Origin: Acaryochloris sp. CCMEE 5410
Lineage (GTDB): Bacteria > Cyanobacteriota > Cyanobacteriia > Thermosynechococcales > Thermosynechococcaceae
Reading direction: 5' to 3'
Length of the DNA stretch: 64,000 nucleotides
Assembly (NCBI RefSeq): GCF_000238775.2
Contig: NZ_AFEJ02000001.1
Location: 3,534,001-3,598,000, forward strand
Shown here piece by piece: positions 27,903-58,844 of this stretch (the first letter of the stretch is position 1; the number at the start of each line of letters is the position of its first letter). The translations under genes were made by a program, and so were the position numbers. Below the pieces are notes generated by a model, which saw only the letters and a list, made by a program, of their open reading frames with translations, made no database searches and was not told the origin of the DNA.

Positions 27903-27999
27903 AGGGGACTGACCTTATTCAGTAATAGTGGAGGACGGTAGCCCACCCCTCCCAACAATGGGCGGCGGGTCTGGTATGTCGCGGTTTGCTTCCTGTCAA

Positions 28000-28728
28000 T
28001 CAAGCCACGGAGGGGCGGGCAGGATGGAGGGGAGGACGATTCCCTTGAAGAATGGACTGGAACGCTTCTTCTCCCAGAGCTGCTTGCAAATCGACTTCCA
28101 GGGACTGCATCAGGTCGCAATTCAGCCGAAAGGCGAGATTCGCTTCCTCCACAATCTGCTGAACTGTCTCTGGTCCAATGGGTAAATGATTTAAAACATC
28201 CCGATAGCGCTGTTTAAATCGCCTTTTGGCCTCTACGGAAGGCAAATCCTCAAAATCGTATAATCGTGTCCCTTGTTTGAGGGGTAACGATAAGGCGGTT
28301 CGAGCAATTCTTTGAAGCTGTTGTCCTCCCGATAAATCTCCCATATAGCGAACATAGGCATGAGCAACCAACCGTTCTGGGGCCGTGAGACCTACAACGC
28401 CAATGCGAGCCGCATATTGCAAACCCGCTGTCCGAGGACGGATATGCTGCTGCCAATCCTGGCCGTAAAAATACACCAAGTCCTGACGCAGATTATCCTG
28501 ACGATTCAGAGAAGGCCAGTAAATCTGACCCAAGACTGGATGAGTTTGATGGGAATAGAGCTGCTGCTCCAAACTGCCATAGACAAAATAGAGGTTCACC
28601 AGTAGCTCTCGAAACGCGTCTAAGGCGACCATGCCCTTCATCCAGGCCTTCATCAGGACTGTGTTCTCAGCAAGAACGTGGGCATGCTGGGTTCCTTGGC
28701 GGAGGGCAAAGGCTAAATTACAGCTCAT
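28000..28728 (-). CDS. ho2: Heme oxygenase (HO2-type)
   Basis: A 242-residue heme oxygenase opening heme to biliverdin for bilin pigments. The proximal-His region is LRQGTQHAHVLAENT (about 7-21), the distal helix is YVRYMGDLSGGQQLQRIA (about 120-138), and FYDF-like LYDFEDL follows. The start at ATG 28728 has CAGGAGGT upstream; an in-frame ATG at 28782 lacks this. Placement with hemN and acsF argues for the low-oxygen isoform. The intergenic region to acsF has an ATAAC/GTTAT repeat (28837-28852). Confidence 0.92.
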   Translation of the reverse strand: MSCNLAFALRQGTQHAHVLAENTVLMKAWMKGMVALDAFRELLVNLYFVYGSLEQQLYSHQTHPVLGQIYWPSLNRQDNLRQDLVYFYGQDWQQHIRPRTAGLQYAARIGVVGLTAPERLVAHAYVRYMGDLSGGQQLQRIARTALSLPLKQGTRLYDFEDLPSVEAKRRFKQRYRDVLNHLPIGPETVQQIVEEANLAFRLNCDLMQSLEVDLQAALGEEAFQSILQGNRPPLHPARPSVA

Positions 28729-28836
28729 AACGAATTTGACCTCCTGGGCAAATGAGTGTGCACTAGGCACCCCTGTCATCACAAGGGTTTGAAACCTAAA
28801 TTACTCAAGGAATAGTTCAACAAGAGCAATTCAATA

Positions 28837-28852
28837 ATAACTATATGGTTAT
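28837..28852. promoter_or_regulatory. ATAAC-N6-GTTAT box between ho2 and acsF
   Basis: ATAACTATATGGTTAT has inverted arms ATAACTA/TGGTTAT (6 of 7 matching) and lies 108 bp from the ho2 start and about 200 bp from the acsF start. It is a relative of the boxes at 22502, 31354 and 43170; the arsR gene is 2 kb away. The rest of this 320-bp divergent region shows no gene. Confidence 0.6.
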
Positions 28853-29049
28853 TTAATTAAAATAGCAAAAACTTTTACTAAAATATTATGCATCCACACT
28901 ATGAGTTTTTACTGAAAGACTTTTAAACCATGTCTCTTTTCATTAAAAAACCGCAATGTAAGGTGTTTATTGTATTCACCCTTATAAACTACTCCATAGC
29001 TATAAAATTATTTAGCACCCCACTTTAAAGCATAAGAGAGCAGATTCCC

Positions 29050-30117
29050 ATGGTTCAAACCGCCCCTCAGCCCAGCTCACCGTCTGTTGTCAAGCAGGAT
29101 GTTCAAGAGAATATTTTGACTCCTCGCTTCTACGTCACTGATTTTGAAAAGGCCGCAGCGTTAGATTTATCCGCCCAAGCAGACGGTTTAGAAGCAATGT
29201 TAGCGGAGATGAAGGCCGACTATAACCGTTTCCACTTTGTTCGGGATGACGCCTTTGAGCAATCTTGGGATCACATCACAGGTGAAGAGCGAGAAGCATT
29301 TTTAGACTATCTGGAGCGATCCTGCGTCTCTGAATTTTCAGGGTTTTTGCTTTTTAAGGAACTATCCCGGCGATTAAAAGGGAAAAGCCCGTTGCTAGCA
29401 GAGATTTTTAGCTTAATGGCACGGGATGAAGCCCGTCATGCTGGATTTCTCAATAAGTCCATGGGGGATTTTAAGCTCTCACTGGATTTAGGCAAGCTCA
29501 CAAAACAGCGGACTTACACCTTTTTCCCCATTGAATGGGTGCTCTATACGGTTTATCTCTCTGAGAAAATTGGTTACTGGCGCTACATTATTATTTATCG
29601 ACATTTAGAACAGCACCCCGAACATCACTTTTATCCCCTGTTCAACTACTTCGAAAGCTGGTGTCAGGACGAAAATCGTCATGGCGATATCTTTAAGGCA
29701 TTGGTGCGATCGCAACCTCAACTGTGGAATACCTGGAAATCGAGATTGTGGAGTCGCTTCTTTCTTCTCACGGTATTTGTCACCCATTCATTGACCGTGC
29801 AGGAGCGTCATACCTTCTATGAAATGTTGGGCCTCGATCCCACGGACTTTGATACGGAAGTGATTCGAAAAACCAATGAAACCGCCGCGCGTGCCTTCCC
29901 GGTGTACCTCAACGTGGACCATCCTCAGTTTTTTCCTCGACTGCATCGTTGTAGCGATCGCAACCTTCAACTCAAAGCCATTGACGCAACGAATCCCCCC
30001 AAACTACTCAAGTGGTTCCGTAAAGCTCCCCACCTATTGGGCATCATTGGGGATTTTCTAAGTCTCTATCTGATAGCACCCCTCAATGCGGAACAACTGC
30101 GTGACGAAATTCACTAA
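29050..30117 (+). CDS. acsF: Mg-protoporphyrin IX monomethyl ester oxidative cyclase
   Basis: A 355-residue di-iron enzyme forming the chlorophyll E ring. Di-iron motifs: a first Glu/His region near EFSGFLLFKEL, ARDEARHAGFLNKS (about 134-147) and CQDENRHGDIF (about 209-219). The length and the NEAARAFPVYL-type region match AcsF. It is presumably the low-oxygen paralog (ChlAII-like), since it faces ho2-hemN across a shared control region; the oxygen-rich paralog is not in this window. AGAGAG lies before the ATG. Confidence 0.92.
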   Translation: MVQTAPQPSSPSVVKQDVQENILTPRFYVTDFEKAAALDLSAQADGLEAMLAEMKADYNRFHFVRDDAFEQSWDHITGEEREAFLDYLERSCVSEFSGFLLFKELSRRLKGKSPLLAEIFSLMARDEARHAGFLNKSMGDFKLSLDLGKLTKQRTYTFFPIEWVLYTVYLSEKIGYWRYIIIYRHLEQHPEHHFYPLFNYFESWCQDENRHGDIFKALVRSQPQLWNTWKSRLWSRFFLLTVFVTHSLTVQERHTFYEMLGLDPTDFDTEVIRKTNETAARAFPVYLNVDHPQFFPRLHRCSDRNLQLKAIDATNPPKLLKWFRKAPHLLGIIGDFLSLYLIAPLNAEQLRDEIH

Positions 30118-32021: not shown

Positions 32022-33323
32022 GGGACTTGCCAAGAAATAAAGTACCTGCGAATCTAAGAAACAAGTCAATACATGATTGACCGATTGTTTTGAGGATATC
32101 TGATGCTAGATGCCCCTATAAAAGAGACGTTTCGAGATGCCGCCAAGAAACTGACAGGCCCACACAAGCGAGCATTCATGGCAAAAGTGGCTGAAGACTA
32201 CCTGGACGGCTCTGCCCGCAAAGCTGAGCGTCATTTAGGTTGGAGACGTACCAGTGTTCAACTGGGCCTTGATGAACGACGGACTGGCATTAGATGCGTT
32301 GACAACTATCAAGCCCGAGGTCGTCAGCTTAGCGAAACGAAACTACCCCATTTAGCAACTGACATTCGGGATTTAGTTGATGGTGAAGCCCAAGCTGATC
32401 CGAAGTTCAAATCAACGTTGTACTACACCCGTATCAGTGCCAGGGCCGTGCGTGAGGCATTGATTGAGGAGAAAGGCTACAGCGATGAGGCATTACCAAC
32501 CCGTCAAACCATCGGCAATCTATTGAATCGAATGGGTTATCGCTTAAAAAACCCAAAAAGTTAAACCCCTGAAAAACTGCCGCAAACCGATGCGATTTTC
32601 GCAAATGTCGCTCAAGCCAATTATGCTGCCGATGCGGCCCCCAACCTATTGCGCATCTCGATTGATAGCAAAGCCAAAGTTAAAATTGGCAACCTCTCTC
32701 GTGGCGGCAAAGCTCGTACCCTAGACGCGACAAAAGCCAATGACCATGATGACCATTGGGACGCTATTTTGGTACCCTTCGGGATTCTCGATGTGCTCGC
32801 AGGGCAACTGTCAATTTACTTTGGTCAGTCTGCTGAAACTACTGATTTTATTGTTGATTGTTTAGAGGCTTGGTGGCGCGAACATCACGATAACTATCCT
32901 CAGATAGAGGGATTAGAAATTAACCTTGATGGCGGCTCTGCAGTGCGCAGTAACCGCACACAATTTATCAAGCGTATGGTTGAGTTTGTCCAAATGACAC
33001 GATTATCGGTTCATCTGATTTACTATCCGCCCTATCACAGCAAATACAATCCGATTGAGCGATGTTGGGCAGCCTTGGAACAATATTGGAATGGCACTAT
33101 CCTCAACTCCATTGATACGGCTGTCCAGTGGGCATCGAATATGACCTGGAATGGATTGAAGCCTTTGGTTCATTTGATTGAGGGCACCTATGAAAAGAAC
33201 ATTACTGTGCCCTCAGATGAGCTAGAAGCCTACAAACAACAATGGCTATGTTCTGAAGCGTTACCCAAATGGGATATCAAGATTGTGCCCAATTGATGGG
33301 TACCTTATTTATTTGTAGATCCC
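32022..33323 (+). mobile_element. ISAzo13-family insertion sequence, about 1302 bp
   Basis: Imperfect 25-bp inverted ends (32022-32046 and 33299-33323; 18 of 25 match, with terminal GGGA and inner GGTACC/AGTACC). The flanks share ATA (32019-32021 and 33324-33326), a possible 3-bp target duplication. It inserted between the ankyrin gene start and an istB remnant. Confidence 0.7.
32103..33296 (+). pseudogene. ISAzo13-family transposase with local frameshift pair
   Basis: The N-terminal half (32103-32564: KLTGPHKRAFMAKVAEDYLDG, VREALIEEKGY, TIGNLLNRMGY) and the catalytic half (to 33296: LRISIDSKAKVKIGNLSRGG, INLDGGSAV, HLIYYPPYHSKYNPIERCW) are in the same frame but separated by TAA at 32562-32564. 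Reading the patch about 32545-32575 in the next frame restores QKVKPLKKLPQTD, which relatives have. So two compensating single-base indels (about 25 bases apart) created the stop. The transposase is probably inactive. Confidence 0.75.
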
Positions 33324-41397: not shown

Positions 41398-42708
41398 TCA
41401 GTGGCTCAGGACGTCCTCGCGTACCGGGTCAGGTTCCGTCGAAGGAACGGCCTCTAACAAAGACAAACCCGCGGCCCGAAGCCCCAAGCGTTCAAACCAA
41501 GGGACGGCAGCTCCCCAACGCATTTTGGCTAGAAAATAGCGTTCAAATGCTGTTTTCAACCAACCCACCCAACGCCCCCCTAGGGTAATGGCGCGGCGTC
41601 GCTGGCCTGTTTCTGGATCGGGCAACACGGGGTCGGCCAAAAAGAGTAATCCTGTATCTCCAAAGTCTGCAAAGCAGATGGCTTCCAAGGTGGGGGTAAC
41701 AGGCTGATCTGAGATGGCCCCTAAGGCCAGGGCAATATTGTGAGCCACTGCCATCCCCATTGCTTCAACCATTTGTCCAGTTTTTGGCACTCCGATTGCA
41801 ATCGGAGTGACCTCTGGTGGAGCCAATTGAGTGACGACACCTGCACTAAACACTGAGGGAAAAACAGGATGCTGATAGGTGGGCAATACGGGCAGAAACC
41901 CCTTGGCATCCCCTAACCCCACTGTCTCACGAACAAAGCCAGGTCCTCGAAACGAAGGCAGCAACATAGCGTACTGGAAGGGCACCGCATCGCCATTGGC
42001 CAGAATAATCTTCTTGGGTGTGACGGAGTCGATAGCGGTATTCTCCAAAACTGCCACGTCTCTGGCCGCCATCAACTCCGTCACGAGCTGGCTAGAATTT
42101 GCCATGCCGCCAATCCCCAAATGCCCCGCATAGGGTTCCGGCGTCACAAATGTAAGGGAAACTTGATCCCGCAACCCTTGCTGGCGAAGGGTGTAATCGG
42201 CCAATAAGGCAAACTCATAGGCAGGACCAAAACAGCTTGCCCCCGGCACTGCCCCCACCACTAAAGGACCCGGATTCTGTAAAAAATTTTGCCAAGCACT
42301 GTTGGCCATTAAAGCATGGTGAGGATTGCAAACCGACTGGGTAAAGCCCTGCTCTGGTCCCAGGCCGGATACCGTATCCAAGGCTAACTCAGCTCCGGTG
42401 GCAATGACGACGTAGTCATAGACCAAAGACTGAGAATCTGTATAAACAGTTTGAGTCCGAGGATTCAGGTTAACCACCGCTTCAGGGAGCCATCTTATTC
42501 CCTGTTGAATCACCAACTCTTCCAGTTCTAACTGAATCTTGGCCAGGGGAGTCAACCCCAGCGCGACCCAAGGGAGGGATGGAATAAATGTGAATTTAGA
42601 GGTATTGGAGATCAGGGTAATTTGGTGCTGGCTAGGTAACAGGTACCTCAACTCATAGGCAGTCGGTAATCCTGCCAATCCTGCTCCAATGACAACAATA
42701 TGAGCCAT
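41398..42708 (-). CDS. Sulfide:quinone oxidoreductase-like flavoprotein (SQR2)
   Basis: A 436-residue FAD enzyme, start ATG 42708 (GAGAGG upstream). FAD motif HIVVIGAGLAGLPTAYEL, then FIPSLPWVALG and YDYVVIATGAEL. Three Cys are placed as in bacterial SQR: QSVCNPHHA (about 128), PGASCFGPAYEFA (about 160) and AICFADFGD (about 352). A C-terminal amphipathic region follows (FERYFLAKM). It should oxidise sulfide and reduce plastoquinone. It differs from SQR1 in type, so the window has two non-redundant SQRs. It diverges from the DUF2892-Rieske-rhodanese-psbA genes over a shared control region. Confidence 0.8.
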   Translation of the reverse strand: MAHIVVIGAGLAGLPTAYELRYLLPSQHQITLISNTSKFTFIPSLPWVALGLTPLAKIQLELEELVIQQGIRWLPEAVVNLNPRTQTVYTDSQSLVYDYVVIATGAELALDTVSGLGPEQGFTQSVCNPHHALMANSAWQNFLQNPGPLVVGAVPGASCFGPAYEFALLADYTLRQQGLRDQVSLTFVTPEPYAGHLGIGGMANSSQLVTELMAARDVAVLENTAIDSVTPKKIILANGDAVPFQYAMLLPSFRGPGFVRETVGLGDAKGFLPVLPTYQHPVFPSVFSAGVVTQLAPPEVTPIAIGVPKTGQMVEAMGMAVAHNIALALGAISDQPVTPTLEAICFADFGDTGLLFLADPVLPDPETGQRRRAITLGGRWVGWLKTAFERYFLAKMRWGAAVPWFERLGLRAAGLSLLEAVPSTEPDPVREDVLSH

Positions 42709-42908
42709 ATATAAGCCTCTCAAAGGTCAGTCTGAAAAGGATTTCAATTAATTAAGTTGCACAGGTTGAAGGGGGCTAGCCTCCTTCTAAATCTCCATAG
42801 GCTTGCAGCAAGCTGGTTGTACTAGATAGGTCACTGCAAGCAGCACTTGAGATAAAACAAGACCTGAGCTTTGATATTAAGCATTCGATTTAAGCTGATC
42901 TTCAATAT

Positions 42909-43239: not shown

Positions 43240-43452
43240 ATGACCAAAAATCAGGGTCTAATGGATCGCCTGTTTCGAATAGGTTTGGGTGGATTACTAC
43301 TTTATTTAGGATTAGGCACCTATAGCGGCTTAACCCTCGGTATGGGGTTAGCGATCGCAGCCGCAATTCCAACCTTTACCGCCCTACTGGGGTTCTGTCC
43401 GATTTATCGATTGTTGGGGATTCACACTAATGCTCGTCAACTTTTCCGATAA
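43240..43452 (+). CDS. DUF2892 (YgaP-like) small membrane protein
   Basis: A 70-residue protein with two predicted membrane helices (about 15-30 and 34-55) and the DUF2892 features RLFRIGLGGLLLYLG and GFCPIYRLLGI. DUF2892 is also the membrane tail of YgaP-type rhodaneses and occurs in sulfur and persulfide operons. A strong AGGAGG lies before the ATG. First gene of a plus-strand run (DUF2892, Rieske-DUF442, rhodanese, psbA) with gaps of 30, 51 and 34 bp. The rhodanese here is separate; together they could reconstitute a YgaP-like unit (inference). Confidence 0.85.
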   Translation: MTKNQGLMDRLFRIGLGGLLLYLGLGTYSGLTLGMGLAIAAAIPTFTALLGFCPIYRLLGIHTNARQLFR

Positions 43453-43482: not shown

Positions 43483-44514
43483 ATGAACGAGAGTTTATCT
43501 ATTGCTCAGCCCTCTCTCTCCCGGCGACGGTTTCTCAATTTCTTGACCGGGTCGGCGGTAGCCATCACGGCAGGTGCAACCCTCTATCCCATCAGTCGTG
43601 TTTTTGTACCCCCAAACTCCAGCAGAGGGGATGGTCGGGTTCTAGCAAAGGATGCCCTAGGCACCCCCATCCCCACTAGTCAACTCTTGGCAGAACCGCC
43701 TGGTACTCGTGCCCTCGTGGCAGGACTAGATAGTGAACCGACCTATTTAACCCTGACGACCACAGGTCAAATTGAGGAGCGGGGCATTGTCGATAACTGC
43801 ACCCATTTAGGCTGCACATTTCCCTGGAATGGTGCTGCCGATCAATTCCAATGCCCTTGCCACGGATCTCGCTTTGCAGCCGATGGTGCTGTGGTGCGCG
43901 GTCCTGCCGATCGGCCCCTCAAGTTGGTGCATGTCCAAGTTGAAGGTGAACAAATCTGGATTCTGCCTTGGACCGAGCTTGACCCACGCACCGGCATCCG
44001 CCCCTGGTGGGTCAAGGCGGATACCTTCGATGACCACCCTACACCGGAAAATCTCATGCAATATACCCTTCAAATCAGTGAGCAGCTCACCGTCGCTATG
44101 ATTCAGCCAACCCCGGACCAGATTCAAGATGCGGCCCAACTGGGGTTTAAGGCTGTATTGAATTTGCGATCGCCCCAGGAAGACGGCTTTCTCATCAATG
44201 AGTCCCAACTCGTGCAAAGCGCAGGTATGAACTATGCCAATCTACCCATTCATCCAGCAGACCTCTCAGAGGCCACGGCTGAGCAAGTGTTGATGATCAT
44301 GGATCAGCTATCCAAACCCATTCTCTTGCATTGCAAAGGAGGGTTGCGCTCTGGTGCGATGGCATTACTCTATGAAGCTGTTCATCAGCGATGGACCACA
44401 GACCAGCTATTGGCCCAAGTCCACAAACTGGACCTGCCCCTAGCCGCACACCCCCAACTGCTGCACTTTATCCAAGACTACGTTGACGCCCAACCCCTTG
44501 GCACCGTGGCCTAG
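43483..44514 (+). CDS. Membrane Rieske 2Fe-2S protein fused to a DUF442 sulfur-transferase/phosphatase-like domain
   Basis: A 343-residue fusion. Residues 13-36 form a Tat-like signal/anchor ([11 protein letters not shown] then a hydrophobic helix). Residues about 45-175 are a PetC-like Rieske domain: ligands C106/H108 in CTHLGC and C124/H127 in CPCHGS, with C111 and C126 able to form the usual disulfide. Residues about 195-335 are DUF442 (tyrosine-phosphatase fold, TIGR01244 type): [31 protein letters not shown], and the Cys loop HCKGGLRSG (Cx4R). DUF442 elsewhere is fused to persulfide-oxidising MBL domains. The fusion suggests coupling of persulfide chemistry to membrane electron transfer; if Tat-exported, the DUF442 part would be lumenal. 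Confidence 0.88.
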
Positions 44515-44565: not shown

Positions 44566-44997
44566 ATGAATAACTATCATCCACGCCGCGCTTCAGTGAC
44601 TCAGATTTCGCCCTTAGCCTACACCAAACTCACGCCAACCCCACTTCTACTGGATGTTCGCAGTGCCGGAGAATACCGAGCAGAACATATCCCTAATGCC
44701 ATTAATCTCAGTTTATTACGCCTGCTCATCGGCCAACTCCCCATCATCAGCCGCTGGGTCCTTCCTAATTGGTTTCAAGCCTTATCTAAGGACCAGCCCA
44801 TAGGGGTGGTGTGTCTAACATCCCATCGTAGTCCCCTGGCAGCAGCCCAATTGCTCAGGGCTGGGTTCACTCAGGTATTCAATTTATCGGGTGGCATGCA
44901 GCGTTGGCGTCAGTGCAGTTTAAACACGATTTCGGGTTATCCATCTGGCTTTACAGTTACGACTCAAGGACATTTAGGGCCAAAACCCAATACTTAA
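44566..44997 (+). CDS. Rhodanese-like sulfurtransferase
   Basis: A 143-residue single-domain rhodanese: [22 protein letters not shown] (about 30-51), active-site loop CLTSHRS with the catalytic Cys (about 84), and [10 protein letters not shown] (about 105-114). No signal peptide, so it is cytosolic. It would carry persulfide sulfur produced by SQR or glutathione persulfide to acceptors. It lies 51 bp after the Rieske-DUF442 gene and 34 bp before psbA, supporting one transcript. Confidence 0.88.
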
Positions 44998-45031: not shown

Positions 45032-46123
45032 ATGTCTACTACGTTTCAGACTCCATCGAGATTACCCACTATTTCAGCCTGGGACCAATTTTGTGAGTGG
45101 ATTACCAGTACCCACAATCGACTCTATGTTGGTTGGTTTGGCCTACTGATGATTCCATCCTTATTCGTCTCAGCCATAACCTTTATGCTCGCCTGGGTGG
45201 CAGCCCCTTCTGTTGATATGGAAGGTATTCGTGAACCTATTATCGGTTCACTTCTGGGTGGGAGTAATGTGATTACTGCTGCGGTGATACCTACTTCAGC
45301 CGCAATTGGTTTACACTTATACCCTTTATGGGAAGCTACATCAATTGATGAGTGGCTCTACAACGGAGGGCCTTATCAACTGATTATCTTGCATTTTTTG
45401 ATCGCTATTTGGACCTACCTGGGGCGACAGTGGGAGTTGAGCTATCGTCTGGGTATGCGGCCCTGGATCGCGATGGCTTTTTCTGCCCCAGTTGCTGCTG
45501 CCACGGCAGTGCTATTGGTGTACCCAATGGGACAAGGAAGCTTCTCCGAAGGGTTACCCCTAGGCATTTCCGGCACCTTCCACTTTATGATGGCAGTTCA
45601 AGCGGAACATAATATCTTGATGCATCCGTTTCATATGTTGGGAGTAGTCGGTGTCTTTGGTGGAGCCTTCCTCAGTGCCATGCATGGCTCTTTAGTCACC
45701 TCCAGTTTGGTTCAGGAAACCTCTAGCCTGGAATCTGTAAATACAGGGTATAAATTTGGCCAACAGGAAGCCACCTATAATCTACTCGCAGGACATACTG
45801 GGTATCTAGGACGCCTGTTTATCCCTGATATCGCCTTTCGCAATAGCCGTTCCATTCATTTTCTATTGGCGGTACTGCCCACGATCGGTATCTGGTTTAC
45901 CGCTTTAGGCATCGGCACGATGGCATTCAATTTGAATGGGTTTAATTTCAATCACTCTCTGCTCGATAGCAGTGGACGACCCATTCGCACCGAAGCTGAT
46001 CTCCTGAATCGGGCCACGATGGGACTACAGGTGATGCATTCTATCAATGCCCATAACTTCCCCTTAATGCTAGCTTCAACTGAGTCTATGGAAATTCCTA
46101 CGATTCCGACAATGAAGAGCTAA
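45032..46123 (+). CDS. psbA: Photosystem II D1 protein, rogue/sentinel type
   Basis: A 363-residue D1 with five membrane helices. Kept: TyrZ Y161, H190, P680 H198, iron ligands H215/H272 (standard D1 numbering). Mn-cluster positions: E189, H332 and H337 are kept, but D170 is Glu (SFSEGLP), E333 is Ser (VMHSINAHN), D342 is Met (FPLMLA). Nearby D61 is Glu, N181 His and the QB-site S264 Ala. The C-terminal Ala344-Ser is kept with a 15-residue tail. Rogue D1s lacking Mn ligands are thought to assemble PSII that cannot evolve oxygen. It is not the chlorophyll f synthase, since GRQW lacks the D131 of that family. AGGAG precedes the ATG; last of four sulfur/Rieske genes. Confidence 0.93.
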
Positions 46124-48281: not shown

Positions 48282-50168
48282 CTACTCCGCTTCAATCTCG
48301 GAAACCCGGAGTTTGCGAAGGGTGGCCATATTCTTTGCCACATTTCCCTGCATCCGCTGAAGAATATTGTTGAGAAATTCCATCGCCCGCTCAATATAGG
48401 GGCCTTTGTTAAGCATGACGCATTCGGCTCGACTGCCCATCGCTGCATCCGTAACCTCTGCCCGTGACGGTAGGCCTCCCTTCGCCAGAGACTCTAGGAC
48501 CTGGGTTGCCCAGATGACGGGAACATGGGCTGCTTGGCACAACAGCAAAATTTGCTCCTGCACTTCCGACATCCGCTCAAAGCCTACCTCAACCCCCAAA
48601 TCGCCCCGCGCAATCATCACGACTACAGACCGACGCTGCATGGCAGCCAGCAATAGCTTGGGTAAATTCTCAAATCCGAGTCGGGTTTCAATTTTGAGAA
48701 TAATGCCTAAGTCTGTTGCCCCCAATTGATCGAGCTTTTGCACCAGCTGTTCTACATCCTCTGGAGACTGGACAAAGGAGAGGGCCACTAAGTCTCCCTG
48801 TTGGGCCACAAAGCTGAGATCGTTGATATCCTTGGGGGTAAGGGCTGGCAGGTTAAGCTGGGTGTCAGGCAGGTTGATGCCCTTTTCTCCCTTGAGCTTG
48901 GCGATTCCTTTGGCCGCCGAGACAATTTCCACCCTTAGTTCAGTCTCACTAACCGTTTGAATCAGCCCCTCAATCTTGCCATCATCAAAAAAGATCCGTT
49001 CTCCCGGCTTCACATCCTGGAACACTTGGGGTAGGGTGCAGCCCACCTGGGCAGGCTGCATGATCTGTCCGGTGGCATCTAAGATAGCGGGCTGGCCTAG
49101 AATGTCACCCCTTAGAATGCGCAGGACATCTCCGGGTTGGAGGGTGAGGGTGTTTTCAAGGGCAGGAAGCTGATCAATCTTGCCCGTTCCTACTACGGTC
49201 TGATGACGTTGAATGTCAAAGGGCAGTCCTGAAGTGATATAGCCGGTGCGATCGCATTCACAGAGACAGCCATTATCCCTCACCTCCACCACCAATAAGC
49301 GGCGGCGACGGTGACGGGCATCCGTAAGCTGAATCATATCTCCCACTTGGACAGAGAGAGGGGACTGAATCGGAATGGTAGTGGCATCTAAGTCAACGGT
49401 CTGGGAGGGCGTTGAGGTCAACCAGAGGCGTGCCGGTTGCACTATACGCCCCAGTCGATCTCGCTGGGGCTGCCATTTGATCACCTCCACATCAGGGGCC
49501 AAGGCCTCAGTTCTCAGTTTGGGACCGGCCAAATCAAAAGAGACCTTGCAGGATAGTCCCAATTCCGCTTCCGCTTGTCGCAGATACTGAATCATTCGCA
49601 GCCAAGCCTCAGGAGCATCATGGGCGCAGTTAATCCGCATAATATCCATCCCCGCAGCCAAAAACCGACGAATCAGAGCTGGGTCCTCTGCTGCTGCCGT
49701 GGGCATCGTCACCATAATTCGAGTGGCCCGCTGTTCGGGTTTAGGCCCTAGGGCCGTGAGGGTATGTTCCACCAGGAGAGCCTGACCATTGGCAAAGGTC
49801 ACAGGGGTCGGGGCTTGAAGTTGAGGAGGCACCGCTCGTTCCACTAGTCGATGCAAAGCAATCAGAACGGCATTGAGAGAGGCCATCACATGAAGTTCGG
49901 TCAGCCCTAGGGAACTAAGGCCCAGGTGGCTGAGTTCAAGCTGTAACTCGCGGATATCATGGCGGCGCAGTGCTAGATAGTGGAGAAGGTTACGAGCACT
50001 GTTGCGATGAGAGGGAGCGGTGCGCTGGAGGGGAATTTTGAAATCCTGCTCGATAGCTAGGGCAAGCGTTTTGAGCTGCTCCAGTGCCCGAATAGCCCCA
50101 TCAATGCGCGGAGCATCGATATTATTCGCAGACGCCAACATAGGGCCAGGTCCAGTTAACAATCTCAT
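48282..50168 (-). CDS. pyk: Pyruvate kinase-like protein with N-terminal extension
   Basis: A roughly 628-residue protein. Residues about 1-140 are a helical extension ([32 protein letters not shown]) not found in standard pyruvate kinase. The catalytic barrel follows: [18 protein letters not shown] (usually NFSHG), [79 protein letters not shown] and MLNKGPY. The usual C-terminal regulatory domain is absent: the protein ends soon after the barrel. ATG 50168 has AAGGA upstream; it overlaps the xfp 3' end by 47 bp. Making pyruvate for PFL would give ATP. ALAMG-type substitutions (NCAHD, CVMLNKG) suggest altered kinetics. Confidence 0.83.
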
Positions 50169-52542
50169 CTTGATCCTTACCATGCTCATGGGCATAGGCT
50201 AAGCATTCGATGATCTTATTGCGCATGCGTTCCTTGGCATGACCCGCTGCCGACCCCAGCTTTGGCACCCGATCAATCACATCAATCACTAGGTTAAAGC
50301 GATCCACCTCATTGTTAATCGCTAACTCCAGGGGGGTATTGATATTGCCCTGCTCCTTATAGCCCCGAACATGAATCCGTTCTTGGTGAGAGCGGCGATA
50401 GACCAGCTTATGAATCAGCCAGGGATAGCCATGAAAGTTAAAGATGATCGGTTTGTCAGGTGTGAACAGGGAGTCAAAGTCCCGATCAGATAACCCGTGG
50501 GGATGTTCGCCTTCAGACACTAACTTAAACAGGTCCACCACGTTAACAAAGCGAACTTTGAGCCAAGGAAATTCTTCCCGCAGGATGGCCGTTGCCGCTA
50601 GGGCCTCCATGGTGGGAATATCGCCACAGGAAGCCATTACCACATCTGGCTCATCGGGTTCAGTGCCACAGTCATCATTGCTGGCCCAGTCCCAAATGCC
50701 AATGCCCTTCGTGCAGTGAGCCACTGCTTCATCGATGGACAGATACTGTAAATGTTTTTGTTTATCCGAGATGATCACATTGATATAGTCCACACTCCGA
50801 AAGCAATGATCGGCGACCGACAGCAAACAGTTAGCATCCGGTGGAAAGTAAAGCCGCACCACATCTGGACTTTTGTTGGTGACCAAGTCCACATAGCCTG
50901 GATCCTGGTGACTAAAGCCATTATGGTCCTGACGCCAAACCAGGGAGGACAGCAAAATATTTAATGACGACACCGACCGTCGCCACGGGACATGATTACG
51001 GCAGATATCTAACCACTTGGCATGTTGGTTAAACATGGAGTCCACAACATGGGCAAAGGCTTCATAGGTATGAAATAGGCCATGGCGTCCGGTTAATAAA
51101 TAGGTTTCCAGCCAGCCCTGTAGCGTATGCTCACTGAGCATTTCCATCACCCGACCATCCCGAGACAGTTCAGTCCCATCTTCGTCTTCAGGATATAGAT
51201 CGGCCATCCAAACTTTCTTCGTGACTTGATATACATCTTGAAGGCGATTGGAGGCCGTTTCATCGGGCCCCATTAACCGAAAGTTATCAGGATTCTTGCG
51301 GATAATTTCCCGCATAAAAATCCCCAAGGCCTTGGTATTCTCAAAGGTGACGGTACCATGCTGCTCCCCAATATCAATTGCTAGATCGTAAAAACTGGGG
51401 AGCTTTAGGGCCTTCCGCAATAAGCCCCCGTTGGCATGGGGATTCGATCCCATGCGCCGATCACCGATCGGAGCCAAGGCTTTTAGCTCGGGAATTAAGG
51501 TTCCGTTTTCGTCAAATAACTCCTCCGGTTTGTAGCTGCGCATCCATGCTTCCAGCTTTTGCAGGTGGTCGGGGTTGTCCTGCATACCCCCCATGGGAAC
51601 TTGGTGCGATCGCCAAAAATCCTCGACTTTTTTACCATCTACTTCTTTGGGACCGGTCCAGCCCTTGGGGGTGCGTAGGACAATCATCGGCCAGCGGGGG
51701 CGCTCCAGGGTGCCGTTGATACGGGCCTCTCTCTGCACCTTTTTAATCGTGAGAATGCATTCCTCCATCACGGCGGCCATCTTTTGATGCATTTCCGCTG
51801 GATTCTTGCCTTCGACAAAATAAGGAGTGTAGCCGTAGCCTCGGAATAAATATTCCAACTCTTCATGGGAGATGCGGGCCAAAAGGGTGGGGTTGGCAAT
51901 CTTGTAGCCATTGAGGTTGAGTACAGGCAACACTGCCCCATCCCGAGCAGGATTGATAAATTTATTAGAATGCCAAGACGTTGCTAGGGGGCCGGTCTCG
52001 GCTTCACCATCCCCCACTACACAAGTCACAATGAGATCGGGATTATCTAAGACAGCACCATAGGCATGGGAAACACTATAGCCCAGCTCTCCCCCCTCAT
52101 GGATGGAACCAGGGGTTTCAGGGGTGACATGACTGCCGATAAAGCCAGGGAAAGAAAATTGCTTAAAGAACCGCCGCATCCCTTCTAAATCTTCACTTTT
52201 ATCGGGATAAATTTCGGAATAGGTCCCTTCCAAGTAGACAGGCCCCAGGACACCCGGTGCACCGTGGCCTGGACCCGCCATAAAGATCATATCCAGAGCA
52301 TATTTTTTAATCAGTCGATTGCAGTGAATATAGGTAAAGCTCAGGGCTGGAGAGGCACCCCAGTGTCCCAGTAAGCGATGCTTGACATGGGCAGATTGGA
52401 GCGGTTCTTTCAACAAGGGGTTATCGCGTAGGTAGATCATGCCCACGGCCAGATAGTTGCAGGCTCGCCAGTAGGCATCAATATTGTGCAGCTCTAATTC
52501 GCTGAGGGGTCTGGATGTGGGGGCAACAGGAGTGTGAACCAT
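50122..52542 (-). CDS. xfp: Xylulose-5-phosphate/fructose-6-phosphate phosphoketolase
   Basis: An approximately 806-residue ThDP enzyme splitting sugar phosphates to acetyl phosphate plus glyceraldehyde-3-P or erythrose-4-P. The N-terminus [29 protein letters not shown], the ThDP site [22 protein letters not shown] (about 190-211, part shown), and [29 protein letters not shown] are family signatures. ATG 52542 is favoured by homology, with GGAGG 11 bp upstream. It sits 81 bp downstream of adhE and overlaps pyk. It feeds AckA directly. Confidence 0.94.
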
Positions 52543-52623
52543 CTTCTTGGAATCCTCCGAGAAATACGTTAGGGGTTGGCCCAGATTGAGCAGGGGCATC
52601 AGTGCGGGACACCCCTCGATGGC

Positions 52624-55332
52624 TCAACTGTTCTCTATAGATGTGAAGTTAATGTTTTTACCGAGCAGGGCCTGATTGTGTGCTGCCGCTTCTAGGGCAA
52701 TTTCGGTAGCTAAAGTCGTCGCCTGCGAAGAATTCTGGTAAGCCTCAAGGTAGAGGGCTTTTAAATCGCGAATCAATGGATAGCGAGGATTGGCCCCTGT
52801 GCACTGATCGTCAAAGGCTTGTTCCGACATCAGATCTAGGTGCTCAAAAAAGGTCTGCTCATCGACGGATAAGACTTCACGAATCGAGGATGGAATATCC
52901 AACTCTAGCTTCAGGTTTTCGATGGCTGTTATCAAGCGCTCTACTTTTTCATCGGCGGTGGTTCCCCCTAAGTTGAGGGAATCTGCGATCGCAGCGTAGC
53001 GACCCTTAGCCTGGGGATATTCGTACTGGGGAAAAATAGCCTGCTTAAAGGGGGCATCCGTGGCGTTATAGCGAATTACATGGGAAATCATCAACGCATT
53101 CGCCAACCCATGGGGGACATGGAACGTAGATCCCAATTTGTGGGCCAGAGAGTGGCAAATTCCTAAGAAGGCGTTGGCAAAGGCCAAACCAGCAATCGTT
53201 GCCGCGTAGTGGACCTTTTCTCGGGCTTCTGGATCAGCACTGCCCTGATGATAGGCTCTGGGCAAGTAAGTCATTAATAAACTAATGGCTTCTAAGGCCA
53301 GTCCATCCGTGAACTCCGTTGCCAAGACCGATACATAGGCTTCCAGAGCATGGGTCAGGGCATCAACCCCACCATAGGCCGTCAGCTTTTTGGGCATATT
53401 GAGGACCAGCTCTGGATCAACGATGGCCATCGTCGGAGTCAGGGCATAGTCGGCCAAGGGATATTTAATGCCCACCCGATCATCCGTGACCACGGCAAAG
53501 GGGGTGACCTCCGACCCGGTGCCTGAGGTGGTGGGGACAGCCACCAGGATGGCTTTATTTCCCAAGGGAGGCAGTTCATAGACGCGCTTGCGGATATCCA
53601 TAAACCGCATGGCTAGACCGTCAAACTCGACTTCGGGATGTTCATACATCAGCCACATCACCTTAGCTGCATCCATGGGTGAGCCACCGCCTAAAGCAAT
53701 AATCACGTCCGGTTGGAAAGTATTAATTACGTCTAACCCCCGTTTCACCGTGGACAGGTCTGGATCAGGTTCGACATCGAAAAACAGATGATGCTCGATG
53801 CCCAGTTGATCTAAAGTCTCGGTGATTTCCTTGGTTAGCCCCAAATCAAATAGAGGGCGATCGGTGATGATAAAGGCCCGCTTTTTCTCGGCTAAATCTC
53901 TCAAAGCCACGGGAATACAGCCATATTTAAAGTAGATTTTAGGGGGCACCCGGAACCACAGCATATTTTCCCGGCGCTCGGTCACAGTTTTGATATTGAG
54001 CAGATGCTGAACGTTGACATTACCGGAGATGGAGTTACCACCCCAAGTGCCACAGCCTAGGGTCAGAGACGGATCCAGCTTGAAGTTATAGAGGTCGCCG
54101 ATGGCCCCTTGGGAAGAGGGAGTATTGATCAAGACTCGGGCCGTGGCGAGTTCAGTTTCGAAAATGCGGATGCGATCGCAATTGGATGCCGCCGTGTATA
54201 ACACGGAGGTATGGCCGCGCCCCCCAAAGTTGACCAACTGTTTGGCTTGGTCCACAGCATCCGTAAAATCCGTGGCCCGATACATGGCCAAAATCGGTGA
54301 CAACTTCTCATAGGCAAAGGGTTCGCTACTGCCAATAATGGAGACTTCACCAATTAAGACCTTATGGCCCTGGGGACCTTCAATCCCCGCTAAGTTAGCC
54401 AGTTCTGAAATAGGCTGACCCACAATAGCCGGGTTTAACTTGCCGTTCTTGAGGATGGTCTGAGCGACTTTATCCTTGTCTTCAGGGGTGAGGAAGTAAG
54501 CCCCTCGCTTACAAAACTCCTGTTTAACCTGCTCGTAGACGGCTTCTGTCACCACCACCGACTGCTCGGAAGCGCAGATCATGCCGTTGTCAAAGGTTTT
54601 ACTCAGCAAGATGGAGCTAACGGCGACTTGGATATCCGCCGTTTCATCAATCACAGCAGGGGTATTCCCGGCACCGACCCCTAAGGAGGGATGCCCTGAC
54701 GAGTAGGCCGCTTTGACCATACCGGGACCACCCGTGGCCAGAATCAGCTTAATATCGGCATGTTGCATTAGGGCTTGGGAAAGGTCCAAGGTGGGTTCGT
54801 CAATCCAACCGACGATATCTGGGGGAGCCCCAGCTTTTAGAGCAGCATCACGAATAATTTCAGCGGCTCGCACCGTACAGTGCTTGGCCCGAGGATGGGG
54901 AGAAAAAATAATGGCGTTGCGGGTCTTGAGACAGAGCAACGCCTTAAAAATAGCGGTTGAAGTGGGGTTGGTGGTGGGGATAATCCCCGCCACAATGCCC
55001 AAGGGTTCCGCCACTTTTTGGATACCGTAATGGGCATCCGCTGATACGACGCCGCAGGTTTTTTCCTGTTTGTACTTGTTATAGATATATTCGGACGCAA
55101 AGTGGTTTTTGATCACCTTGTCCTCAATCACTCCCATGCCCGTCTCAGCCACGGCTTGTTTAGCTAGGGGAATGCGCTCGGCATTGGCTGCGATCGCAAC
55201 TTGCTTAAAGATATGGTCCACCTGCTCCTGGGTATAGGTGGCATAGGCCTCCTGGGCTTGCTTCACTCGGGCAATCAGATCTTCTAGGGAAGGAATATCG
55301 GTGACTTGAGGCTGGGTTTGAGTCGTCATCAT
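52624..55332 (-). CDS. adhE: Bifunctional acetaldehyde/alcohol dehydrogenase
   Basis: A 902-residue fusion of a CoA-acylating aldehyde dehydrogenase (about 1-440; catalytic Cys in DNGMICASEQSVVV) and an iron-dependent alcohol dehydrogenase (about 460-870; IALGGGSPMDAAK, GTGSEVTPFAV, His ligands in GVDALTHALEAYVS and ICHSLAHKLGSTFHVPHG). It reduces acetyl-CoA to ethanol, regenerating two NAD+, and forms spirosomes in E. coli. AAGGAG precedes ATG 55332. It follows pflA with a 42-bp gap, which fits a PFL-based mixed-acid pathway. Confidence 0.96.
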   Translation of the reverse strand: MMTTQTQPQVTDIPSLEDLIARVKQAQEAYATYTQEQVDHIFKQVAIAANAERIPLAKQAVAETGMGVIEDKVIKNHFASEYIYNKYKQEKTCGVVSADAHYGIQKVAEPLGIVAGIIPTTNPTSTAIFKALLCLKTRNAIIFSPHPRAKHCTVRAAEIIRDAALKAGAPPDIVGWIDEPTLDLSQALMQHADIKLILATGGPGMVKAAYSSGHPSLGVGAGNTPAVIDETADIQVAVSSILLSKTFDNGMICASEQSVVVTEAVYEQVKQEFCKRGAYFLTPEDKDKVAQTILKNGKLNPAIVGQPISELANLAGIEGPQGHKVLIGEVSIIGSSEPFAYEKLSPILAMYRATDFTDAVDQAKQLVNFGGRGHTSVLYTAASNCDRIRIFETELATARVLINTPSSQGAIGDLYNFKLDPSLTLGCGTWGGNSISGNVNVQHLLNIKTVTERRENMLWFRVPPKIYFKYGCIPVALRDLAEKKRAFIITDRPLFDLGLTKEITETLDQLGIEHHLFFDVEPDPDLSTVKRGLDVINTFQPDVIIALGGGSPMDAAKVMWLMYEHPEVEFDGLAMRFMDIRKRVYELPPLGNKAILVAVPTTSGTGSEVTPFAVVTDDRVGIKYPLADYALTPTMAIVDPELVLNMPKKLTAYGGVDALTHALEAYVSVLATEFTDGLALEAISLLMTYLPRAYHQGSADPEAREKVHYAATIAGLAFANAFLGICHSLAHKLGSTFHVPHGLANALMISHVIRYNATDAPFKQAIFPQYEYPQAKGRYAAIADSLNLGGTTADEKVERLITAIENLKLELDIPSSIREVLSVDEQTFFEHLDLMSEQAFDDQCTGANPRYPLIRDLKALYLEAYQNSSQATTLATEIALEAAAHNQALLGKNINFTSIENS

Positions 55333-55374
55333 GTGTGCTCCTTAGGTAAAGGCAATCCTGTTCAAATAGCGGGG

Positions 55375-56202
55375 TCAGCGGACCGATACCCCATACTCAC
55401 GAAACTGTAGGCGAACCCGCTCAACTAGCTCAGGTGAGGGGGACTGAGTCTCCTTTAAAAGATAGTCATAGCCCAGTTCTTCCCATTTGTAGGCCCCCAT
55501 TTGGTGGAACGGCAGAACCTCCACCCGTTCAATATTGGTGAGATGGGCTACGAACTGGGCGAGCGCAGCCACATTCTCAACGTCATCTGTTAAGCCCGGC
55601 ACCAACACAAACCGAATCCAGGTGGGTTTGCCTATTTGATGCAAATAACGGGCAAGGCAAAGCGTAGGTTCCCGTGAAACTTGGGTCACTTGGATAAATC
55701 GTTTAGGGTCGTAGGATTTGATATCTAATAGCACCAAATCGGTATATTGCAGTACCCGCTGAGCGCTGGTGAGATCAGAAAAGCCTGAGGTATCTAAGGC
55801 GGTATGAATGCCTAGGGCCTGACATTGGCGCATGAGTTCCGCAACAAATTCGGGCTGAAGTAAGGGCTCACCCCCACTCACAGTGATGCCGCCACCAGAT
55901 GCCTGCATATAGGATCGATAGCGTTGAATCTCTGCTATCAATGCCTCGACGGTCGTCACCTGTCCACCTGTTACATCTCGGCAGTCTGGGTTATGGCAGT
56001 AGAGACAGCGCAAGGGACAGCCTTGCATAAACACTACAAATCGCAGCCCTGGGCCATCGACACTACCACAAGTTTCTACAGAATGGATGCGACCTGTCAG
56101 ACCAGAATTGGGAGAGGAAACCGCAAGGAGAGAGGCAGGAGCTGAGATTGTTTCACCAGACGGTGACCGTTGATCTCGATGGGGCACAGAGTGATATTGC
56201 AT
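55375..56202 (-). CDS. pflA: Pyruvate formate-lyase activating enzyme
   Basis: A 275-residue radical SAM activase that installs the glycyl radical on PflB. Residues 1-35 are a low-complexity extension not present in E. coli PflA; then GRIHSVETCGSVDGPGLRFVVFMQGC and the cluster motif CPLRCLYCHNPD (about 64-75), GGGITVSGGEPLLQ and ALDTSG. AAGGAG lies before ATG 56202. It is separated from pflB by ppsA, an unusual order. Confidence 0.94.
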   Translation of the reverse strand: MQYHSVPHRDQRSPSGETISAPASLLAVSSPNSGLTGRIHSVETCGSVDGPGLRFVVFMQGCPLRCLYCHNPDCRDVTGGQVTTVEALIAEIQRYRSYMQASGGGITVSGGEPLLQPEFVAELMRQCQALGIHTALDTSGFSDLTSAQRVLQYTDLVLLDIKSYDPKRFIQVTQVSREPTLCLARYLHQIGKPTWIRFVLVPGLTDDVENVAALAQFVAHLTNIERVEVLPFHQMGAYKWEELGYDYLLKETQSPSPELVERVRLQFREYGVSVR

Positions 56203-56249
56203 CTGGTCTCTCCTTACAGTTTTGTGACGTCCGGTCCATAGACTAGCCG

Positions 56250-58775
56250 TCAGTTCTGAACGACACCCGTCGATTGGTCTTCAACTTGGGCAATGGCCAA
56301 CCGAGTTTTGAGCACCGTATCTGGATTAAGGCTGATGGAGTCAATCCCTTCCTCCACCAAGAACTGGGCAAACTCAGGATAGTCACTGGGGGCCTGACCA
56401 CAGATGCCAATTTTGCGCTCCTTAGCCTTGGCAACAGCAATTACTTGGCGCACCAACTTCTTCACGGCAGCATTACGTTCATCAAAAATATGGGCAACGA
56501 GGGCAGAGTCTCGGTCTAGTCCTAGGGTGAGTTGGGTTAAGTCATTGGAGCCGATGGAGAAGCCATCGAACACCTCAGCAAATTCCTCTGCCAGCACCAC
56601 ATTGCTGGGTACTTCGCACATCACATAAACCTGCAAGCCGTTTTCACCCCGTTTCAGACCATGCTGGGACATTTCCTTGAGGACCTGCTGGCCTTCTTCA
56701 GGAGTACGACAGAAGGGAATCATGGGAATGAGATTCCGCAGTCCCATCTCATCGCGAACCCGCTTCAGGGCCTGACATTCCAGGGCATAGGCTTGGCGAT
56801 AGTTGGGGTCGTAATAGCGAGAAGCTCCCCGCCAGCCAATCATCGGGTTTTCTTCTGTGGGCTCAAACTGGCGTCCGCCGATTAAGTTGGCATATTCATT
56901 ACTCTTAAAGTCAGACATGCGAACGATCACGGGATTCGGATAAAAGGCCGCCGCAATCATGCCTACCCCTTGGGCCAGCTTATCCACAAAGAAATCTGGC
57001 TTGTAGGCGTAATTAGCGGTCAGTTGAGCAATGGCCAACTTGGCTTCTACATCCGTCAACTCGTCATACTTCAGCAGCGCCAAAGGATGGGTCTTAATCT
57101 GATTGGCGATAATAAACTCCAATCGCGCTAGCCCCACCCCATCACAGGGGATGGCTGCCAACCCAAAGGCTTCATCGGGGTTGCCCACATTCATGAGAAT
57201 TTGGGTTCGGGTGGGAGGCAGTTCATCTAAGGCGGTTTCTTCCACCACAAAGGGGATTAAACCGGGATAGACCTGTCCCGTTTCACCTTCAGCACAGGAG
57301 ACGGTGATATTCTGACCTGTTTTCAGGACTTCGGTAGCGGTGCTGCAACCAACAATGGCGGGAATACCCATTTCCCGAGCGATAATCGCGGCATGGCAGG
57401 TGCGTCCCCCTTGATTGGTGACAATGGCACTGGCCTTTTTCATAATTGGTTCCCAGTCGGGGTCCGTGCGGTTGGTCACCAAGACCTCTCCCGCCTGGAA
57501 TTCCTTAATCCCTTGCACCGAAGCAATCACCCGAGCTGCCCCCTGGCCAATGCGATCACCCACAGCTCGACCCTCAATAAACGGGGTAGGCAAAGTATCC
57601 ACCGTCATTCGATAGGCAGAGAGTCGATTGGCGACCTTCTGGGACTGGACCGTTTCTGGTCGGGCTTGGACAATAAATAAGACTCCCGTTTGGCCGTCCT
57701 TGGCCCATTCGATATCCATGGGGGTGTCCATCCCCCGGACCTGGGAATAATGGTCTTCAATAATGCAGGCCCAGCTGGCTAAGGTGAGGATTTCATCGTC
57801 GTTGACGGCAAACTTGGTCCGGTCTGCTTCTGGAACGGCAATATTTTTGGTAAGTTTGCTACCCCCCAAATCGTAGACCATTTTGATCTCTTTACTGCCC
57901 AGATGTTTGCTCAAAATGGGACGAAAGCCGTCAAGTAAGGTCGGTTTAAAGACTAGAAATTCATCGGGGTTGACTGCGCCTTGAACCACATTTTCTCCCA
58001 GACCGTAGGCGGCGGTGACCAAGGCTGCATTCTTAAACCCCGTTTCCGTATCGATGGAGAACATCACTCCAGAAGCGGCTAGATCCGATCGCACCATTTT
58101 CTGCACGCCCACGGATAGGGCCACCTGGAAATGGTCAAAGCCTTTAAGGGTGCGATAGGAAATCGCCCGATCTGTAAAGATGGAGGCAAAGCATTTGTGG
58201 CAGGATTCCAAAACCTGTTTAACACCATGGACATTGAGGTAGGTTTCCTGTTGTCCCGCAAAGCTCGCATCGGGTAGGTCTTCTGCTGTGGCACTGGAGC
58301 GGACGGCGACGTCAACGTTGTAGTGATAGGCCTGCAGGCGTTCTTGCTCTTTGGAAGCTTGCCCTTCGGAAGCGGCATTGCCTACGCCATATTGTTCGCA
58401 CAGTTGGCAATAGGCAGTGGAAATCGCTAACTCCAGATCCTTGGGAAAGGGGGTGTGGAGAATGAGCGATCGCGCTTGCCGACCTCGCTGGCGTAAATTA
58501 TCAACATCCTCAACATCTAGATCGGCAAAAATCTGCCGCAGTTGGGCTTCAATCCCTGCCTGCTGAACAAAATACCGATAGGCATAGGCGGTGGTAGCAA
58601 AGCCATTAGGGACATTCACGCCTAGAGGAACTAAATGCTGAATCATTTCCCCTAGGGAGGCATTTTTGCCACCGACTAGGGGAATATCGGCAATGCCGAC
58701 TTCATCAAAACCTAAGATTAATGCCTGGTCACGACTGGTTTCAGGGGTGGGACGGGGAGCAATACGAATATTCAT
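56250..58775 (-). CDS. ppsA: Phosphoenolpyruvate synthase
   Basis: An 841-residue enzyme converting pyruvate plus ATP to PEP, AMP and phosphate. ATP-grasp N-terminus (LVGGKNASLGEMI, VAVRSSATAEDLPDASFAGQQETYLN), central phospho-His in GGRTCHAAIIAREMG, and the PEP-binding barrel (RMSDFKSNEYANLIGG, GSNDLTQLTLGLDRD, ICGQAPSD). GGAGG precedes ATG 58775. Its place between pflB and pflA beside a pyruvate kinase is odd, since the two reactions oppose each other; PpsA could recycle pyruvate when oxygen returns, or salvage fermentation products (inference). Confidence 0.95.
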   Translation of the reverse strand: MNIRIAPRPTPETSRDQALILGFDEVGIADIPLVGGKNASLGEMIQHLVPLGVNVPNGFATTAYAYRYFVQQAGIEAQLRQIFADLDVEDVDNLRQRGRQARSLILHTPFPKDLELAISTAYCQLCEQYGVGNAASEGQASKEQERLQAYHYNVDVAVRSSATAEDLPDASFAGQQETYLNVHGVKQVLESCHKCFASIFTDRAISYRTLKGFDHFQVALSVGVQKMVRSDLAASGVMFSIDTETGFKNAALVTAAYGLGENVVQGAVNPDEFLVFKPTLLDGFRPILSKHLGSKEIKMVYDLGGSKLTKNIAVPEADRTKFAVNDDEILTLASWACIIEDHYSQVRGMDTPMDIEWAKDGQTGVLFIVQARPETVQSQKVANRLSAYRMTVDTLPTPFIEGRAVGDRIGQGAARVIASVQGIKEFQAGEVLVTNRTDPDWEPIMKKASAIVTNQGGRTCHAAIIAREMGIPAIVGCSTATEVLKTGQNITVSCAEGETGQVYPGLIPFVVEETALDELPPTRTQILMNVGNPDEAFGLAAIPCDGVGLARLEFIIANQIKTHPLALLKYDELTDVEAKLAIAQLTANYAYKPDFFVDKLAQGVGMIAAAFYPNPVIVRMSDFKSNEYANLIGGRQFEPTEENPMIGWRGASRYYDPNYRQAYALECQALKRVRDEMGLRNLIPMIPFCRTPEEGQQVLKEMSQHGLKRGENGLQVYVMCEVPSNVVLAEEFAEVFDGFSIGSNDLTQLTLGLDRDSALVAHIFDERNAAVKKLVRQVIAVAKAKERKIGICGQAPSDYPEFAQFLVEEGIDSISLNPDTVLKTRLAIAQVEDQSTGVVQN

Positions 58776-58844
58776 CTCAAACCTCCAGAGAACTCGAAAG
58801 GGAGGGAAGCTTCCCCTTAGTCAGGTAAGGGGAAGCAGGGGTAG

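Follow-up and report, generated by a model that had tools for sequence, protein, structure and literature searches.

Within a 64,000-nucleotide stretch of Acaryochloris sp. CCMEE 5410 (contig NZ_AFEJ02000001.1, positions 3,534,001 to 3,598,000; hereafter the window), a PetC-like membrane Rieske protein and a DUF442 domain are encoded in one frame. This raises the questions of whether the join is genuine, how it may have arisen, and what a DUF442 domain could do on a Rieske protein of the cytochrome b6f type. The reading proposed here, to which we give a probability of roughly one half, is that the product of this gene is an alternative Rieske subunit of b6f, of the PetC2 type, which carries a lumenal DUF442 sulfurtransferase for use under micro-oxic or sulfidic conditions. 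Published work is cited from the passages of each paper that were available to this study.

Domain make-up of the fused gene

The original prediction, made from the letters of the sequence, was of a membrane Rieske protein with its cluster boxes followed in frame by DUF442, and this was borne out by Pfam and by an open reading frame that runs from its ATG to its stop without an internal stop (Table 1). All three domains exceed their curated cut-offs, namely, TM_PetC (58.8 vs 37.1 bits), Rieske (residues 102-147; 33.4 vs 20.3 bits), and BLH_phosphatase/DUF442 (PF04273; 35.7 vs 26.1 bits). The NCBIfam equivalog of the b6f Rieske subunit, NF045928, is narrowly passed (255.9 bits vs a cut-off of 250), and the TIGR01244 sulfurtransferase cut-off is missed (42.9 vs 85.85 bits). 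By sequence as well as by Foldseek, the best solved relatives of the Rieske half are b6f Rieske chains. The best Foldseek matches of the DUF442 half are the DUF442 proteins 3gxg/3gxh and also 2f46, followed by tyrosine and dual-specificity phosphatases among others. In the anchor, the stretch SRRRFLNF is presumably a twin-arginine-like motif, as read against the Tat consensus.

Table 1. Features of the fused gene and of its neighbours, in positions of the window
Feature	Position	Strand	Evidence or remark
SQR	41398..42723	-	divergent; phmmer to 3hyv (1.8e-98) and 3sz0
YgaP-like transmembrane protein (DUF2892)	43240..43452	+	Pfam PF11127, 63.7 bits; first gene of probable operon
Fused gene, PetC2-type Rieske + DUF442	43483..44514	+	343 aa; Pfam and NCBIfam
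N-terminal anchor (TM_PetC, residues 8-52)	43504..43638	+	PF25471; low-confidence model helix 12-39
Rieske cluster boxes CTHLGC (106-111), CPCHGS (124-129)	43798..43869	+	aligned with solved b6f Rieske proteins
Junction/linker, residues 178-196, right behind conserved Rieske C-terminus PWWV	44014..44070	+	
DUF442/BLH_phosphatase, Pfam residues 198-293, folded to about 336	44074..44361	+	Pfam, model, Foldseek
Active-site loop HCKGGLR (His283-Arg289), C-x4-R	44329..44349	+	
Rhodanese, 143 aa, loop CLTSHR	44566..44997	+	Pfam PF00581
psbA variant, D1 Glu170/Ser333/Met342 (rogue-D1 type)	45032..46123	+	

The Cx4R loop that had been foreseen is likewise present, reading HCKGGLRSG from residue 283 with Cys284 and Arg289, and loops of this type are common to all 47 DUF442 rows compared. 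Each of the six fused sequences considered below (five intact and one with a stop) contains four Rieske-box cysteines and one DUF442 cysteine, a count that fits a persulfide carrier, not a disulfide relay. An AlphaFold model built on a 54-row alignment (mean pLDDT 86.5, pTM 0.56) predicts two folded domains with a short loose linker between them; at this pTM, the position of one relative to the other is undefined. In blocks of ten residues, the pLDDT is 81-97 for the Rieske head (51-180) and 89-98 for DUF442 (191-340); it is 45-65 over the first 50 residues, where the anchor is poorly modelled, and falls below 50 at residues 182-187.

Copies, relatives and origin of the join

The join of Rieske and DUF442 is real and conserved. 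PF04273 matches twice in the 8.09-Mb source genome (G000), and both places are Rieske-DUF442 fusions; the second fused frame, on contig C6, is 374 aa long and 55% identical to the window copy. PetC anchors occur three times in this genome, i.e., in one 180-aa frame of the housekeeping type and in the two fusions. Three further intact fusions were found in the same-genus genomes G001 and G004. Fusions are thus present in three of the seven same-genus genomes searched, the four genomes without one being 82-92% complete.

A sequencing error that fused two genes, which had been named beforehand as an outcome that could overturn the finding, is rejected as very unlikely, given that the three genomes together contain these five intact fusions. 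A sixth copy, G001:C101 (L026; Acaryochloris sp. IP29b_bin.137), is 94% identical to the window copy and is interrupted at the junction by one in-frame TAG, at L026 3831-3833. Draft errors are possible in this locus, as its psbA also matches as two overlapping pieces. In the second island of the source genome (L136 14591-15786, contig C6), psbA matches in two pieces that lie in separate frames; the Rieske-DUF442 gene there is intact.

The fused genes fall into two lineages whose proteins are 54-55% identical. According to our own Nei-Gojobori script, dN/dS within the second lineage ranges over 0.04-0.11 in the Rieske half and over 0.11-0.28 in DUF442, and between the window copy and G001:C101 it is 0.26 and 0.16, respectively. 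Between the lineages, DUF442 gives 0.17-0.31, while the synonymous sites of the Rieske half are saturated and yield no value. On these ratios, purifying selection appears to act on both halves. The linker is variable and looser than either half, over a number of sites too small to weigh.

In wider searches, 114 of the 388 genomes of the class had a PF04273 match, and among the matches listed, places outside the genus lay in frames of at most 278 aa. With query P0001 at E <= 1e-78, 16 of the 388 genomes matched, and among the matches listed, full-length ones free of stops occurred only in the genus. The survey outside Cyanobacteria covered one other phylum, plasmids, and a pattern scan that reaches close relatives. 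In that phylum (301 genomes, that of G388), at least 29 genomes had a PF04273 match, and in the seven places inspected, out of the eight with the longest frames listed, no frame contains a Rieske box pair. Among plasmids, none of the 162 matching records covered 80% of the query, and the operon DNA of the window had no match. Outside Cyanobacteria, the loci L171 and L172 give weak PF04273 matches below the cut-off; both resemble two-domain rhodaneses and have a CRIGER loop, which indicates that the loop region of the PF04273 model also catches rhodaneses.

A Rieske paralogue present in 78 other, non-Acaryochloris cyanobacterial loci shares 58-69% identity with the Rieske half; these loci come from a single pattern-based scan, and some genomes contribute two of them. 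The same scan over all species genomes gave 80 loci, one of them non-cyanobacterial, and it reaches close relatives only. Between the Rieske half and the housekeeping-type PetC of the source genome, the identity is about 46%. In a tree of 96 rows, 87 PetC2-type rows (the fused ones included) and nine housekeeping-type rows are split at 100/100, and a reduced tree keeps the split with 42 and three rows. On these trees, the Rieske half is placed in a separate clade and not with housekeeping PetC. The clade is apparently the petC2 of the literature, a name that rests on neighbours and papers: a low-oxygen isoform linked to sqr has been named petC2 and lies beside sqr (PMC11304991). A change of the Rieske proline loop from GPAP to GPAD or GPAN was considered as a mark of the fusion and rejected, as unfused PetC2-type rows have the same change.

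On the plasmid pAQ7 of PCC 7002 (L165 8001-9793), a petC2-type gene annotated with 163 codons overlaps an IS4-like element, and a gene for an FAD-dependent oxidoreductase lies beyond it. The overlap matters for the interpretation of petC expression in PCC 7002; a petC that responds to polysulfide has been described in this strain, and which petC copy is meant could not be told from the passages at hand (PMC12466478).

Unfused homologues end their Rieske frame with PWWx and a stop in 74 of the 78 loci (PWWV in 60), whereas the fused proteins continue past PWWV into the linker. A separate DUF442 gene follows petC2 directly on the same strand in seven of the 78 loci. All six DUF442 halves of the fusions group in a single clade (97/86). 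The DUF442s behind petC2 in L027, L028, L029, L035, L051, and L064 make up a second clade (99/100), separate from the first, and that of L081 falls without resolution. This tree is to be read with the program's warning of long branches, and the DUF442s of L027 and L028 are identical. On this tree, petC2 and DUF442 seem to have met more than once. Since a DUF442 of another lineage stands behind petC2 in six loci (two of them with identical DUF442s), a chance meeting seems unlikely. For the fusion itself, a single origin is favoured by the DUF442 tree, and the Rieske tree (p-AU 0.35) decides neither way. In four loci (L027, L028, L029, and L154), the separate DUF442 downstream shares the reading frame of petC2 and is parted from it by stops, and a fusion could arise if stops of this kind were lost.

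Gene neighbourhood and published expression

The fused gene stands second in a row of plus-strand genes, in the order YgaP-like transmembrane protein, Rieske-DUF442, rhodanese, and psbA, with a gene for sulfide:quinone reductase (SQR) on the opposite strand before them. Three cysteines of the SQR align with those of 3hyv. Compared with a housekeeping D1 of the same genome, the psbA product has the changes D170E, E333S, and D342M, at manganese-ligand positions, and by these residues it is of the rogue-D1 type. Near petC2 in other loci, similar D1 variants occur, or D1 with intact ligands but Ala80/Leu158. The YgaP-like piece and the rhodanese that flank the fused gene resemble a split YgaP, which is a membrane rhodanese.

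Across the 78 loci, the YgaP-like gene occurs in 40, SQR in 33, psbA in 23, and a rhodanese of at least 40% identity in 27; 40 loci have at least two of these neighbours, and 21 have none. These counts are lower bounds, as the flanks are full in 42 loci and short in 36. In L139 (6504-6869), which is the island of one relative, an open reading frame beside SQR may encode an ArsR-type regulator.

The region around the fused gene is a low-oxygen region, a cluster for life with hydrogen sulfide and little oxygen. At 26508-30114 and 50122-61097, the window contains HemN, heme oxygenase, and a rubrerythrin-family gene, which may be AcsF as judged by its place, together with a fermentation set (phosphoketolase, alcohol dehydrogenase, pyruvate formate-lyase, and a radical-SAM gene). 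An NrdG-like gene is also present. At 32103-33296, two open reading frames match separate portions of a single transposase family and seem to belong to a broken insertion element.

A counterpart has been reported in A. marina MBIC11017, where AM1_0450 is listed as a 'Rieske iron-sulfur (cyt b6f) fusion protein' (Table 2 of PMC5295598). The architecture had been thought not to have been described before; the listing takes away from that claim, and what stands is that the second domain goes unnamed in the passages of that paper at hand. AM1_0450 shares with the window gene its rhodanese, DUF2892, and psbA1 neighbours, with heme oxygenase and HemN (AM1_0467) in the same stretch of locus numbers (PMC5295598). 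Since the gene sets match, it is very probably the ortholog, as judged by gene neighbourhood. Under micro-oxia, AM1_0450 rises about 16-fold, from 16 RPKM in the control to 276, psbA1 from 40 to 251, AM1_0449 (the rhodanese in the table) from 31 to 281, and AM1_0451 from 3 to 276 RPKM; the text of the paper swaps the labels of AM1_0449 and AM1_0451 (PMC5295598). Co-transcription of the AM1_0450 region was suggested there, and the same paper cautions on co-expression within a similar Synechocystis cluster, a caution that counts against our reading (PMC5295598).

PetC2, the low-oxygen Rieske isoform of cyanobacterial b6f (Synechocystis slr1185, PMC5295598; petC2 beside sqr, PMC11304991), has in common with the fused protein the Rieske half and anchor, the sqr, psbA, and rhodanese neighbours, and low-oxygen expression in print; the membership of slr1185 itself in the clade is assumed from neighbours and papers. 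It also counts against our reading that slr1185 (petC) is among the genes responsive to sulfate starvation, with psbA1 unchanged (PMC2491639).

Within the open library searched, no literature on a Rieske protein joined to DUF442 was found, nor any biochemistry of the present protein. For DUF442 on other proteins, sulfur transfer has been described. The DUF442 of Xylella Blh transfers sulfane sulfur from thiosulfate to cyanide or GSH (PMC5823870), and that of the Cupriavidus pinatubonensis SQR is a sulfurtransferase that requires the loop Arg (PMC8533005). Both loop residues, Cys284 and Arg289, are present in the fused protein. The tie of DUF442 to sulfane-sulfur enzymes that had been foreseen is upheld by these reports; the adjoining SQR and rhodanese add a sulfide setting, which had not been part of the prediction. 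The kinship with Blh stands in part. Blh (DUF442-ETHE1, from a BigR operon) shares the DUF442 domain and a sulfide and low-oxygen setting (PMC5823870), but the fused protein has no MBL (ETHE1 dioxygenase) domain, misses the Blh model NF040641 by a wide margin (50.7 vs 625 bits), and is related to Blh through a single domain. The C. pinatubonensis SQR likewise has DUF442 on a quinone-linked enzyme, with the loop CRTGTR vs CKGGLR here (PMC8533005); that SQR feeds electrons to quinone, whereas the Rieske type here takes them from quinol.

Possible roles at cytochrome b6f

In b6f Rieske proteins, the C-terminal side faces the lumen, and a C-terminal DUF442 would therefore face it too. By a simple hydropathy scan, 12 of 13 stand-alone DUF442 proteins have no hydrophobic N-terminus (L129 is ambiguous), which suggests that they work in the cytosol and that the fusion probably relocates the activity. 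Given this topology, the sulfur transfer described in the available passages on DUF442 proteins, the kept loop, and the single cysteine, we favour a lumenal sulfurtransferase tethered to b6f that deals with sulfane sulfur while SQR feeds the quinone pool. We infer the assembly into b6f, the lumenal side, the substrate, the acceptor, and the protective role of the protein. SQR would pass electrons of sulfide to plastoquinone, b6f with PetC2-DUF442 would oxidise plastoquinol as usual, and the neighbouring D1 would make a photosystem II without water splitting. DUF442, carried on the lumenal side by the Rieske head, would take sulfane sulfur (from thiosulfate, persulfide, or polysulfide) on its single cysteine at the lumenal b6f face. 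By handing it to an acceptor, it may protect lumenal metal centres (Rieske, cytochrome f, plastocyanin) or clear the SQR product. A bolder proposal, to which we give a low probability, is that b6f senses or clears lumenal persulfide via the mobile Rieske arm during SQR-fed, non-oxygen-evolving photosynthesis.

Several results count against a lumenal sulfurtransferase. The PTP-NADK model is just passed and TIGR01244 is missed, one copy has a stop at the junction, fusions occur in three of seven genomes, and the structural model defines neither the placement of the domains nor, with any confidence, the anchor. The shift of DUF442 across the membrane would also move it to a new setting, perhaps with a changed or lost role.

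Among the alternatives, DUF442 could be a sensor of sulfane sulfur in which persulfidation of Cys284 alters the motion of the Rieske head and throttles b6f. The single reactive cysteine on a short loose linker and the low-oxygen regulation of the A. marina gene (passages of PMC5295598) would fit, but the model predicts no confident contact between the domains (pTM 0.56) and the whole catalytic loop, perhaps needless for a sensor, is kept; we consider this unlikely. A mostly neutral read-through fusion, in which stops were lost and DUF442 gained no special role at b6f, would agree with the same-frame DUF442 genes behind stops in four loci, with the poorly conserved linker, and with the stop in one fused copy. 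The low dN/dS of both halves within the second lineage, the loop and single cysteine kept in six of six fused sequences, and the fusion of both PetC2-type copies of the source genome make it improbable.

It is also quite doubtful that DUF442 acts as a phosphatase of the DSP/PTP fold on a phosphoprotein or nucleotide. The fold matches include PTP and DSP enzymes, and over nearly the same stretch as PF04273 (residues 208-305) PTP-NADK (PF22741) passes with 27.7 vs 27 bits, Tc-R-P falling narrowly short at 26.3 vs 27. However, PF04273 scores higher, the best structures are DUF442 proteins (although the PDB title of 3gxg/3gxh reads 'putative phosphatase'), the neighbours are sulfur genes, and the loop is C-x4-R, the spacing of rhodaneses, whereas classical PTPs have C-x5-R. 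Least probable by far is the direct passage of persulfide electrons from DUF442 into the Rieske centre, as first proposed for this gene: both centres lie on one chain, but the single DUF442 cysteine leaves no resolving thiol, DUF442 is not known to have a redox cofactor, and the Rieske centre is already supplied with electrons by plastoquinol. The DUF442 chemistry in the available passages in print, i.e., sulfur transfer, speaks against it as well, as does the Geitlerinema site, which is not inducible, unlike the A. marina operon (passages of PMC5295598).

The reading of a lumenal sulfurtransferase on an alternative b6f subunit touches the open question of how cyanobacteria switch between oxygenic and sulfide-based photosynthesis. 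One low-oxygen region brings together a core electron-transfer subunit, a D1 whose water-splitting ligands are altered, SQR, and a pair of sulfur-transfer enzymes, and two of these are now a single protein. The fusion suggests that sulfane sulfur is handled at cytochrome b6f, and if b6f does carry a sulfane-sulfur enzyme in its Rieske arm, sulfur handling and electron flow would be physically coupled.
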